Assembly: GCF_900108505.1 (NCBI RefSeq)
Contig: NZ_FNWU01000007.1
Span: forward strand, 1-64,000
Length of the DNA stretch: 64,000 bases
Direction of reading: 5' to 3'
DNA from: Halopenitus malekzadehii
GTDB taxonomy: Archaea > Halobacteriota > Halobacteria > Halobacteriales > Haloferacaceae
Shown here piece by piece: positions 59,928 to 64,000 of the stretch. Numbering within the stretch: position 1 is the first letter of the stretch; each line of letters opens with the position of its first letter. Both the position numbers and the translations under genes were made by a program. Below the pieces are notes generated by a model. It had not been told where the DNA came from, searched no databases, and worked only from the letters and a program-made list of their open reading frames with translations.

Positions 59928-60394
59928 GGTGTCTACAGAGATTCAGCGAGAGTGCCGCGGGGTTTGCTTCCTCGGTATTTCACGCAAGACGTTGACGTCT
60001 GGGGGCGTTCAGTATGTGGATTGACCTTCGGTATTTGTGATTATCCTCTATGGAAATGTAACCAATCGGTGCCCGGCCATCCTGATGGTAGCTTAAGTAG
60101 TCAACAAGCCGTGACAGATTGAGCTGAAATCACTCAGTAGTAACTGCCAAGATACGCAGTTCTCCGTTGCCGTGATCCTCAATACTTCGATCGACACCAA
60201 TATTTTCAAGTTTTACTTCAAATGCCCGTTGGGATATGTCCGTTCCCGCTTCACACACACCAAGTCGATTCAGTTGAGATTACCTCTGTGGCGGCCGAAT
60301 ATAGAGCATCCGACCACACGACTACCTTATTCCTACTTAACACGGCTCACCGCAGTCAAATATTTATTATACACTAGATACTCAACCCGTAATC
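59928..60394. other. Gene-free stretch right of the origin
   Basis: No supported gene or repeat over about 470 bp. The last 60 bp before 60395 are AT-rich (AAATATTTATTATACACT) and probably hold the promoter of the GIY-YIG gene. Confidence 0.4.
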
Positions 60395-60919
60395 GTGGAT
60401 CTTAGCTCAATCCCAACCGATCCAGGTGTTTATTGTATGTTTGACCTAGACGATACGCCAGCATACGCGGGTCAAACTAGTAACCTTCGCAACCGACTAC
60501 GCCAACATTTCGTTCGCCAAGATTCGAGTGTCTCAAGCTATGGCCGACTCGATCCCTGGGACATTGCTACAGTCGCTTGGTGGATCACGGACCAGACTGA
60601 CCGCGCAGAACAAAAGTTGCTAGCCGATTTCGAACCGTATCTGAACTTTGCGGATGGGAACAATATCACGGTTCAGATAGATACGATCGATACTGGAACA
60701 CCAAATGGTACTTTCGCACTTATGTCTAAGGATGAGCAATCGTTCCGCCGTCAGCCCTACAATCGCGTCAAGCAAAAGATCGAGCATATCAATCGAATGG
60801 TAGACAAGATTAAATATGCAAATCACAGCGACGATACTCGGCGAACTCTGTACGAACACAAAAGGATCTTAGAGCAGAACCTTGAGGAATTTCTTGGAGT
60901 TGAGGAATCTGACAACTAA
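60395..60919 (+). CDS. GIY-YIG nuclease domain protein
   Basis: 174 residues from the GTG at 60395. DPGVYCMFDLDDTPAYAGQTSNLRNRLRQHF is the GIY-YIG core (here GVY and YAG) with the catalytic Arg in NLRNRLRQH, and AEQKLLADFEPYLN carries the catalytic Glu. The C-terminal 80 residues are helical and charged. Stand-alone GIY-YIG proteins act in repair, restriction or mobility. Near a TGT-like gene it might belong to a DNA-modification or defence set, which is speculative. Confidence 0.82.
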   Translation: MDLSSIPTDPGVYCMFDLDDTPAYAGQTSNLRNRLRQHFVRQDSSVSSYGRLDPWDIATVAWWITDQTDRAEQKLLADFEPYLNFADGNNITVQIDTIDTGTPNGTFALMSKDEQSFRRQPYNRVKQKIEHINRMVDKIKYANHSDDTRRTLYEHKRILEQNLEEFLGVEESDN

Positions 60920-61302
60920 AAGTGGGATCTATTTTTTGAGAATCTATATTTTATTTAGTTTAACCAAGAGGCTCGAGTTCTTCTCCTGTGCTTGTCTAAG
61001 TGTATTGGGCTGCATTATTCAGAGGCTTAATGTTCGTTTGAGGTTCCAGTGATTTCTCCTAGTATAGACTCTCGAAATGTTTGAACATACTTTGTTGAAT
61101 CCGATGAATGCGTCGAGATTATTGTTTGACGTTGAAGACGGCGGCACGTCAACACCGTTCACAGAATTCGCGATACCACCTACGAAGATGGACCGTCTAA
61201 ATTGATGCTTGATAGACGGAAATGGAAGCAACACAGATTACGTGTCAGCCGGAAAGAGGTAATGAGAATACGTTTATTTAAATCGATCGCTTTACACGAT
61301 TT
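60920..61302. other. Gene-free stretch
   Basis: I see no gene, repeat or IS end here. AT content is raised. It separates the GIY-YIG gene from the convergent hypothetical gene and may hold terminators for both. Confidence 0.4.
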
Positions 61303-61773
61303 TTACTCTAATTCCCCCTCATCATACAGGGACTTCATATCCTCCCACCATTCATCCAGAATTATTTCTGGACGCATATTCCCGTCTAAATACTCAGTAG
61401 CCCATTCGGCTGCATCTACTCTATTGAGGTCGTACACCTTCTTTTCCGTCAGCTTTCCACCATCAGTAGAAATGTCTGATTCTAAAAGCTCATAGAAGGT
61501 TTTATTCTTAATTTTTTTCCCGAGAGAGCCATTCTCGGACATCTTCTGGAGATCGTTGCTATGGAATAGCTCGTCTTTGTAGTAGTAATCTGAACCCTCG
61601 GCGAAGGTACCATCAATATGTCCTATCTTCCAGTCAACTCGACGATTTCCTTCCATCACAGTCTGAACAGCGTAGACAGTTCCTTTACCCTTATGAGAAA
61701 CATTGGTATTGATCTCAGTTTGGATCTCCTCGGTCTTTGATTCGTCTTGATCGTCGGTCGGCAGTTCTGTCAT
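61303..61773 (-). CDS. Hypothetical protein
   Basis: 156 residues, charged, with a central beta-rich part (GKGTVYAVQTVMEGNRRVDWKIGHIDG) and a helical C-terminus (AAEWATEYLDGNMRPEIILDEWWEDMKSLYDEGELE). No motif I recognise. It lies 304 bp downstream of the TGT-like gene on the same strand. Low GC suggests recent transfer. Confidence 0.6.
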   Translation of the reverse strand: MTELPTDDQDESKTEEIQTEINTNVSHKGKGTVYAVQTVMEGNRRVDWKIGHIDGTFAEGSDYYYKDELFHSNDLQKMSENGSLGKKIKNKTFYELLESDISTDGGKLTEKKVYDLNRVDAAEWATEYLDGNMRPEIILDEWWEDMKSLYDEGELE

Positions 61774-62077
61774 ACTAACTTGGATTGGCAGATAGGTAAT
61801 AATACTTGTTGCACTATATGGACGCTTGTTCCAGCTTTTAATTCATCAAACCGCGGATAAACAAAATTTTGAATCAACAGCTCAATTGAAATCCTCAATA
61901 GTTGATAGTCTTCTACACCCTCGATTGCTGAGAAGGAACAGATGCTATATTATTTTAGCATCCTTGCGAAGTGTGGATCTGATTCAAGTAACCTTGAACT
62001 GCCGGAGAGCAATTGGCGATTGGATCAACCGATATGATATATTAGAGCCTCGAAGATATCAATAATGGGCCCAGCGA
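61774..62077. other. Gene-free stretch
   Basis: About 300 bp between two minus-strand genes with no recognisable feature. It is AT-rich and likely holds the promoter of the hypothetical gene at 61303-61773. Confidence 0.4.
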
Positions 62078-64000
62078 TTACTGGGGTGGTGTCGATGGGA
62101 GCACGTCATTTAGGTGCTCAGATAGCTCTTCAAGATTAGTTGCTCTGAAGTGTTCAGTGAGCGCGCGCATTTTCGGATCTTTTGGAAGGACAACGCCATT
62201 TCCGTACTCGGAGAACGCTTGCTCTATTATGGTGCGGTAGGTTTTGCTGGTCGCATAGCCAACAATGGCATCGAACTGTGAGCCGTATTCCTCGAGGTAG
62301 GAGACCAAACGGTCCGCGACGAGTTGTTTGCGCTGTTTCTCAGCGTTTGTCAGCACGTACTCGTATGATTTAATCTGCGAGAGACTCTCGTACTGCTCGG
62401 GTACGGGGCCGTACATACCGGAGACAGTTACTTTGTGAATCTTACTGCTCCACTCAGCGGTTGCGTCTGCCACGACACGGTGTGTTCGGGAATTAGAATA
62501 CGGCTTAGTTTGGCTACACGGGAGAACGAGTAGTACGCGCTCATCACCGACCTGGTAGTCCTTCCGTTGAAGAATGTTGAAGTCTTCCGGTGTGTGTTCA
62601 AGCGAGATCTCTTGGTCATCGACTGGAATATCCAAATCAAGCCGTTCCTGCTCTGCATCACTTTGATCGGCGGTTAGTCGATTGTAGCCGCGCTCACGGA
62701 GCTGCTGTGCCAATTCACGGTCTCGGACTGTTGCCCGTTTTAATGCCCGCTTGATGTTCCCCACATCGTTGCGAGCCATCTTGGCAACGTATTCAAGCAA
62801 CTTGCCGTCACCGTCGTTGATCAGCTCCCGCACATAATTCATTTCATCTTGGTAAACACAGAAGTTATGATAACTCATTAGTGCATAAAAATCGCTCTTC
62901 ATATACTTTCCATCTGGATCATACGACTCGCTGTCGTACATCGTGACCTGTAGTTGCTCGAAACCTATCCGCCGTAGATGCTCACATGCGGGACATTGAC
63001 AGCCCCAGTCGTCGGGAATCTGATCCGCAGTGAATTTCGACCAGTCCGCTACCCATCGTGCGTCGGCTGTCCGGTCGACATCGACACCAAAATCACCCAA
63101 GTCGTGTGTCGAAGCGTTCGGATTCCGGACGAATTTCTCATCTGAAACTCCAATCTCTCGATTGATGAATTTCTTGAACTGTGCTGCTTGCATATAGCTT
63201 GACGAGTCAAATGAATCCGCGCCAAGAAGCGTCAGGAGCGCCGTGAACTTCCCACTAATCCCGAATAAATGAAGCCCGAGATCATTTTTTCTATCCGCAG
63301 GAATCGCATCCTTCGCACCTTGCACGATGTCAACCAGCATTTCGACGTTCGTTCGGAGTGGGACGAGTGACCCGATTGCAAATCCCTCAAATGACTTGTC
63401 AATGTGCGTCGCACGGTCAAGGAATGTCCCAACGTACCAATTGATCGTTTCGTAGTCGTGACCATGAATAGCGACATATACCGCGGGCGGATCTGACTGA
63501 TCCTCCAAGAGTTCAAGACAGCGTATGGCGCTGTCAATACTGTCTTCCATTCGTTGAGTCGTCTCCTCATCGTTCAGATTCGGTGGGATCGGGTAGTCTA
63601 GGGTAGCGATAATGTCAGCGCCATAATCGAGCTGTAAGTCTAGAATACTCTCTGGATTCGTGTAGATGGCCCACTCATTGTCATCGCCTCCCTCCGTTGG
63701 CGGGTCACCGAACGTGTCGGAGTTTAGAAGCTTGAATCCGCCTGAGTCTACAAACAACGGCTTGGTGAAATTCTCCGGCTGTGAGTGATACGGCTTGACC
63801 GGTTTATGATCAGTGAAGTGATTATGGATCGGTTTCGAGCGCCAGTTCTCAAGCGATTCGGGAGTGATATTGAAATCCAAAAAACTCATCGCTTGGAACA
63901 TCGCACCTTGAAACTCGGGTTCTCCGAAGAGATGATTCCTCAATCGACTCCAAATTCCGCCGGACTTTTCGTTGGGTCCACCGATGAAATTGACTACGGG
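62078..64000 (-). CDS. TGT-like transglycosylase with ArcS/DUF5591-like domain (partial, DpdA candidate)
   Basis: At least 640 residues; the frame is open to the right edge, so the start lies outside. Numbered from the codon at 63943, the TGT parts are FVDSGGFKLL (Asp66), IATLDYP (Asp116), GADSFDSSSY (likely nucleophile Asp246) and the zinc site C-x-C-x2-C (315, 317, 320) with His359 a possible fourth ligand. The C-terminus LLVLPCSQTKPYS to KTYRTIIEQAF resembles the ArcS/DUF5591 domain. TGT enzymes swap guanine for preQ0; DpdA relatives do so in DNA. An archaeosine-type tRNA role is the alternative. Very different from housekeeping ArcTGT in spacing. Confidence 0.8.
   Translation of the reverse strand, partial: PVVNFIGGPNEKSGGIWSRLRNHLFGEPEFQGAMFQAMSFLDFNITPESLENWRSKPIHNHFTDHKPVKPYHSQPENFTKPLFVDSGGFKLLNSDTFGDPPTEGGDDNEWAIYTNPESILDLQLDYGADIIATLDYPIPPNLNDEETTQRMEDSIDSAIRCLELLEDQSDPPAVYVAIHGHDYETINWYVGTFLDRATHIDKSFEGFAIGSLVPLRTNVEMLVDIVQGAKDAIPADRKNDLGLHLFGISGKFTALLTLLGADSFDSSSYMQAAQFKKFINREIGVSDEKFVRNPNASTHDLGDFGVDVDRTADARWVADWSKFTADQIPDDWGCQCPACEHLRRIGFEQLQVTMYDSESYDPDGKYMKSDFYALMSYHNFCVYQDEMNYVRELINDGDGKLLEYVAKMARNDVGNIKRALKRATVRDRELAQQLRERGYNRLTADQSDAEQERLDLDIPVDDQEISLEHTPEDFNILQRKDYQVGDERVLLVLPCSQTKPYSNSRTHRVVADATAEWSSKIHKVTVSGMYGPVPEQYESLSQIKSYEYVLTNAEKQRKQLVADRLVSYLEEYGSQFDAIVGYATSKTYRTIIEQAFSEYGNGVVLPKDPKMRALTEHFRATNLEELSEHLNDVLPSTPPQ

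Follow-up and report, generated by a model that had tools for sequence, protein, structure and literature searches.

Across the right edge of a 64,000-base stretch of DNA from the haloarchaeon Halopenitus malekzadehii (the window; bases 1-64000 of the 98,086-base contig NZ_FNWU01000007.1, here C11, with which it shares one coordinate numbering) runs a four-gene operon that probably forms the modification arm of a Dpd-like restriction-modification system, the haloarchaeal BRIGADE Type I. The operon lies on the minus strand in the order D-C-B-A, and its last gene, A (62078-64099, minus strand, ATG start; 62078..64000 in the window), encodes a 673-residue protein in which a tRNA-guanine transglycosylase (TGT) domain (Pfam TGT, 7.1e-23) is fused to a C-terminal DUF5591 domain (2.3e-16). 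The reading frame of A is open across 62078-64000 and exits the window, its start lying 99 bases further right, and the other three genes stand outside the window on the same strand: B, a GHKL ATPase (64173-65723), C (also TGT2), a second TGT of 413 residues (65724-66965), and D, a DUF6884/YaaA-like protein (66965-67504). An earlier note, made from the letters of the window, had proposed a DpdA-like 7-deazaguanine modification locus at this edge, with A running on and more partners beyond it. This last and decisive prediction held, as the DNA to the right carries not only B, C and D but also DpdJ-, DpdK- and DpdH-like genes and QueD-QueE-QueC, and these neighbours, together with the tree placement of the two TGTs, argue for the proposed modification locus.

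Both TGTs are apparently catalytically active. In an alignment of 18 A proteins, 22 C proteins, 29 ArcTGT and 3 bacterial Tgt, the general-base and nucleophile aspartates are invariant, with DSGGF at the base and FD[SC]S at the nucleophile in 40/40 A and C, and the zinc ligands are nearly invariant. Each TGT is moreover paired with its own nitrile-type domain, A with DUF5591 (ArcS type) and C with the adjoining DUF6884 protein D (DpdC/YaaA type). The C-terminus of A, which the earlier note had called ArcS/DUF5591-like, proved to be ArcS-related and retains the ArcS motif (PCSQTKPYSNSRTH); the full form PCSxxKPYSxSxTH is found in 16/18 A proteins, PCSxxKPY in 20/20 ArcS compared, and this domain shares on average 26% identity with ArcS and 16% with D. 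D itself has only SCSxxK, is nearer to DUF6884/YaaA and shows a weak DpdC likeness. By these signatures A is an active-looking DpdA-like transglycosylase with an ArcS-type domain.

In the mechanism that we propose, QueD-QueE-QueC would make preQ0, and A and C, directed at DNA, would swap guanines in the cell's DNA for it. The DUF5591 domain of A would then probably turn DNA-bound preQ0 into an ArcS-type amidine (preQ0-lysine or archaeosine) and the DUF6884 protein beside C would probably turn it into an amide (ADG), while the GHKL ATPase would drive or gate modification in the stead of DpdB. Action of the ArcS-type domain on DNA-bound preQ0 is what we infer; Thermococcus ArcS moves lysine onto preQ0 even when the latter is presented as a nucleoside (PMC11298593), and a tRNA-free reaction of the DUF5591 domain of A is therefore plausible. 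Two marks might thus coexist in one genome, deoxy-ADG (dADG) made by TGT2 with DUF6884 and preQ0-lysine or archaeosine placed in DNA by A, in a dual-mark code that is perhaps asymmetric with respect to strand or site, an extension of the proposal that we put forward tentatively and with rather less than even confidence.

Two TGT modules are the rule wherever C is found. Among 391 genomes of the class, C occurs in 42 and A in 38, and 37 of the 38 A genomes also carry C (p 3e-45, a value that overstates independence, as the genomes are related). Five genomes have C but lack A (G028, G142, G290, G295 and G370), and each of them encodes, upstream of D-C-B, a 310-residue protein related to the DpdA of Halorubrum virus HRTV-29 (E 2e-15), in most cases with a second DUF6884 gene beside it. 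Since 37 genomes carry A and five carry the viral-type DpdA, all 42 C genomes possess a second TGT module, by two different routes. In HRTV-29 the DpdA likewise adjoins a YaaA/DUF6884-type gene, but it is highly diverged and the viral genes stand alone without restriction partners. That A and C themselves came from viruses is unsupported: no relatives of A turned up in the viral contigs scanned with it, and in phage records A had only weak Tgt-like matches and TGT2 had none.

The constancy of this pairing could also reflect a heterodimer in which one TGT is merely the partner subunit of the other, as in eukaryotic QTRT1/QTRT2, so that the system would place a single mark at a single site. TGTs act as dimers, and the joint presence of A and C in 37/38 genomes would fit this main rival explanation. 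Against it, both proteins retain general base and nucleophile along with almost every zinc ligand, each has a nitrile-type domain of its own, and A is swapped in five genomes for a highly diverged viral-type DpdA, which is hard to square with a fixed interface. We consider the heterodimer unlikely, though it is the strongest of the alternatives to two DNA-directed modules.

Several other layouts were seen in the vicinity of these modules. Where the viral-type DpdA replaces A, an 829-residue GmrSD-type modification-dependent nuclease adjoins the GHKL gene (L075:12888-15377; G142, G290, G295 and G370; ~94% identity between copies where compared), and such a nuclease next to a modifying system is puzzling. 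Lone pairs of viral-type DpdA and YaaA with no adjoining BRIGADE partners, like that of HRTV-29 and probably proviral, occur in G346 (L163:9392-10757) and G361 (L164:9335-10796). Another two-TGT layout of haloarchaeal plasmids combines a 967-969-residue DUF6884+TGT protein with a TGT of 341-344 residues (L087:7945-13026; G010, G222, G130 and G364), and on a Haloarcula plasmid of this kind a BREX-type ATP-binding protein adjoins, placing it near the BREX-related capture systems (PMC12839542). Two-TGT pairing is not restricted to archaea, as a plasmid of Paenibacillus sp. 37 (L125:11992-15966) and cyanobacterial plasmids (L084, L085) encode a long DpdA with an extra domain and a short second TGT, the former along with DpdJ, DpdK, QueDEC and a VUT transporter. 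In these bacterial plasmids, however, the extra domain is N-terminal, whereas it is C-terminal in A, the GHKL-TGT2 operon was not seen and the TGTs fall in other clades.

Neither A nor C groups with the tRNA enzymes, a grouping that the earlier note had set against its own proposal. A tree of 90 sequences resolves A (99/100) and C (82/85) as separate clades and gives ArcTGT a clade of its own (100/99), joined with bacterial Tgt (99/97), so that A and C lie outside ArcTGT; ArcS, whose TGT-like part is degenerate, was left out of this tree, and the long branch of the 969-residue haloarchaeal N-fused proteins, which were wrongly cut for it, is disregarded. The glutamine of tRNA TGTs (29/29 ArcTGT and 3/3 bacterial Tgt) is replaced by histidine in 40/40 A and C. 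As the earlier note had held, A is unlike housekeeping ArcTGT: its scores with the NCBIfam tRNA models are far under the cut-offs (TgtA 70 of 350 bits, ArcS 74 of 440), and no PUA domain was found in A by Pfam scan, nor in C. While A shares the domain order TGT-DUF5591 and the ArcS motif with ArcS and the TGT catalytic residues with ArcTGT, its TGT domain looks active, in contrast to the degenerate one of ArcS. In addition, a different contig of the host genome (3.14 Mb, 99.6% complete) encodes the host's own ArcTGT and ArcS. On the tree, the histidine and this host complement, we reject a housekeeping tRNA paralogue.

A related alternative makes A and C additional modification enzymes for tRNA or other RNA, forming a second archaeosine pathway on an accessory replicon. 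The ArcS-type domain and motif of A would suit such a pathway, as would the fact that A is, among well-known proteins, most closely related to ArcS and ArcTGT, but no PUA domain was found in either protein, both stand outside the ArcTGT clade with histidine for glutamine, the host is already equipped with ArcTGT and ArcS, and A and C are strictly linked to Dpd-like helicases and nucleases, making RNA modification improbable. Modification of tRNA and the island may draw on a common precursor: the island QueC is the sole full-length QueC found in the host genome, so that one preQ0 supply would serve both tRNA and the island. In a genome of the same genus (G017; 99% complete, two contigs) QueE was not found, and preQ0 supply may therefore vary within the genus or come by import.

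DNA modification by a BRIGADE-type system is further indicated by the genes to the right of the operon. BRIGADE systems, described computationally by Bell et al. in a 2025 preprint (PMC12458937), are presented in its main text as haloarchaeal and Dpd-like, usually with two YprA helicases, a phospholipase D (PLD) or PD-(D/E)xK nuclease and predicted 7-deazaguanine genes; Type I combines one ARMADA-like helicase, into which a BrxA-like domain is inserted, with one Dpd-branch helicase, and is given there for halophilic archaea only (PMC12458937). At our locus, two YprA-like helicases, G and L, are encoded on the plus strand, and ranking of profile scores, rather than a YprA tree, places G (1576 residues; 69649-74379) on the Druantia/ARMADA-like side (DruE1 139, DpdJ 96 and DrmA 60 bits, with the MrfA Zn-binding domain retained) and L (1358 residues; 79767-83843) on the Dpd branch (DpdJ 155 and DruE 39 bits; hhalign against DpdJ 99.9%). 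M (83815-84258, plus strand) is a DpdK-like PLD nuclease, with PLDc_2 and DpdK matches and an hhalign probability of 96-98% against DpdK. The 7-deazaguanine genes comprise the two TGTs, DUF6884, DUF5591 and QueD-QueE-QueC (94532-96571, plus strand), the latter near the contig end and separated from the PLD gene on their left by ~10 kb, and in the class-wide sample the system is found in halophilic archaea. As judged from sequence, the locus matches BRIGADE Type I in all the defining features tested.

Bacterial Dpd clusters (the S. Montevideo type and the E. cloacae pPOL9A cluster, L089) share with the locus a DpdA-like TGT, the DpdJ helicase, the DpdK PLD nuclease and QueDEC, as well as, weakly, DpdH- and DpdC-like proteins. 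They differ in that our locus has two TGTs, an extra Druantia-like helicase, an ArcS-type domain and a GHKL ATPase without a recognised DpdB: the DpdB model matched none of the island proteins scanned, and NCBIfam profiles and hhalign recognised no counterparts of DpdD, E, F and G at the locus. With the DpdA-B-C set incomplete and DpdB, D, E, F and G unrecognised, a plain bacterial-type Dpd cluster was rejected. The two YprA helicases, the DpdH-like ATPase J (76146-79016, plus strand), the PLD nuclease and, in some genomes, the GIY-YIG nuclease described below would degrade unmarked DNA. By analogy with the bacterial dpd cluster, for which restriction of an unmodified plasmid by >1,000-fold is reported (PMC5567051), attack on unmarked DNA is the most likely role of these helicases, ATPases and nucleases.

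Several observations weigh against a Dpd-like modification system. Matches of island proteins to the NCBIfam Dpd models are far beneath the equivalog cut-offs (in the case of the DpdA model, 24 bits of 200 for C and no match for A; hhalign of C against DpdA reached 78%), and for H, I and K no counterpart emerged when they were compared by hhalign with DpdG, DpdI and others. Not every bacterial DpdA has histidine in place of the TGT glutamine, the ArcS-like domain of A could point to RNA work, and the AlphaFold model of A, built from an input of six closely related sequences, is uninformative (mean predicted local distance difference test score, pLDDT, of 38).

The GIY-YIG nuclease (174 residues; 60395..60919, plus strand; Pfam GIY-YIG 6.6e-7), the first gene of the island and known to the earlier note as a nearby nuclease, turned out to be a true partner: the gene is present in 13/391 genomes, in 13/13 together with C and ~2-20 kb from it (hypergeometric p 4e-14). 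Because it occurs only where the system is present, we reject an unrelated neighbour and regard its product as a candidate nuclease of the system, either effector or accessory. The border of the island lies close by. From 18.9 to 60.0 kb, blocks of the window are collinear with the second contig (138,020 bases) of another genome of the genus that is assembled in two contigs. This supports the plasmid-like replicon that the earlier note had suspected, and the collinearity ends at 59,961, just left of the GIY-YIG gene; GC content is ~0.53-0.67 across the first 46 kb versus 0.43-0.50 at 60-64 kb. Close homologues were found in Halorubrum and Natronocalculus, with Halorubrum coriense DSM 10284 and H. 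lipolyticum DSM 21995 among the cultured carriers, and in two close relatives (G009 and G152) the operon resides on 3-Mb contigs, indicating that it moves between replicons.

Within the island, some 20 loci retain the order D-C-B and about ten the order G-H-I-J-K, with H (74376-75308), I (75305-76144) and the 226-residue K (79006-79686) all on the plus strand and H and I of unknown family, while A and gene blocks shift place and strand between genomes. Such reordering and inversion, along with variation in a 263-residue protein, F, and in a vWA gene (67898-68530, beyond the operon), might be read as a decayed island or a chance set of defence genes to which the GIY-YIG gene is unrelated. All core island genes are open and full-length here, however, and both the retention of D-C-B and the confinement of the GIY-YIG gene to genomes with the system render decay or chance very unlikely. 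Least credible is attachment of 7-deazaguanine to protein by the TGT paralogues, as by the remodelled TGT-family defence enzyme Cap10 of type IV CBASS (PMC11996544), whose PDB sequence TGT2 matches weakly (E 0.39), given that the TGTs are linked to DpdJ, DpdK and DpdH homologues of DNA restriction, that no CBASS genes were seen at the locus and that a nitrile-type gene also adjoins the viral DpdA of HRTV-29.

BRIGADE is known from computation only, and the locus supplies a concrete anatomy for it: two transglycosylase modules with nitrile-type domains of their own, in a pairing that holds in 42/42 TGT2 genomes even when one module is exchanged for a viral-type version, and a GIY-YIG nuclease exclusive to the system. 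The paired modules, the ArcS-motif fusion and the GIY-YIG partner go beyond the main text of the preprint (PMC12458937), which contains no occurrence of transglycosylase, DpdA, GHKL or GIY and mentions neither the number of TGTs nor an ArcS-type fusion, a GHKL ATPase or a GIY-YIG nuclease; its supplement lay outside the comparison, and its authors may already know of the paired TGTs. Likewise, among the papers that the literature searches returned, none was seen to describe two-TGT dpd systems. The chemical prediction is that archaeosine or a preQ0-lysine adduct would occur in cellular archaeal DNA beside dADG, and this would bear on the fate, in such hosts, of haloarchaeal viruses with or without 7-deazaguanine DNA modification.

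Between the GIY-YIG gene and A, a 156-residue protein (61303..61773, minus strand) gave no match with Pfam, NCBIfam, PHROGs or PADLOC, and its membership of the system is uncertain. A YhhQ-type transporter (93683-94345, minus strand), which we count with QueDEC among the parts of the system, lies near the contig end. Finally, a 1476-residue helicase (C11 89149-93579) with weak MkoA and DpdJ-profile likeness recurs beside the islands in G321, G099, G361 and G146 and is possibly a further defence module.

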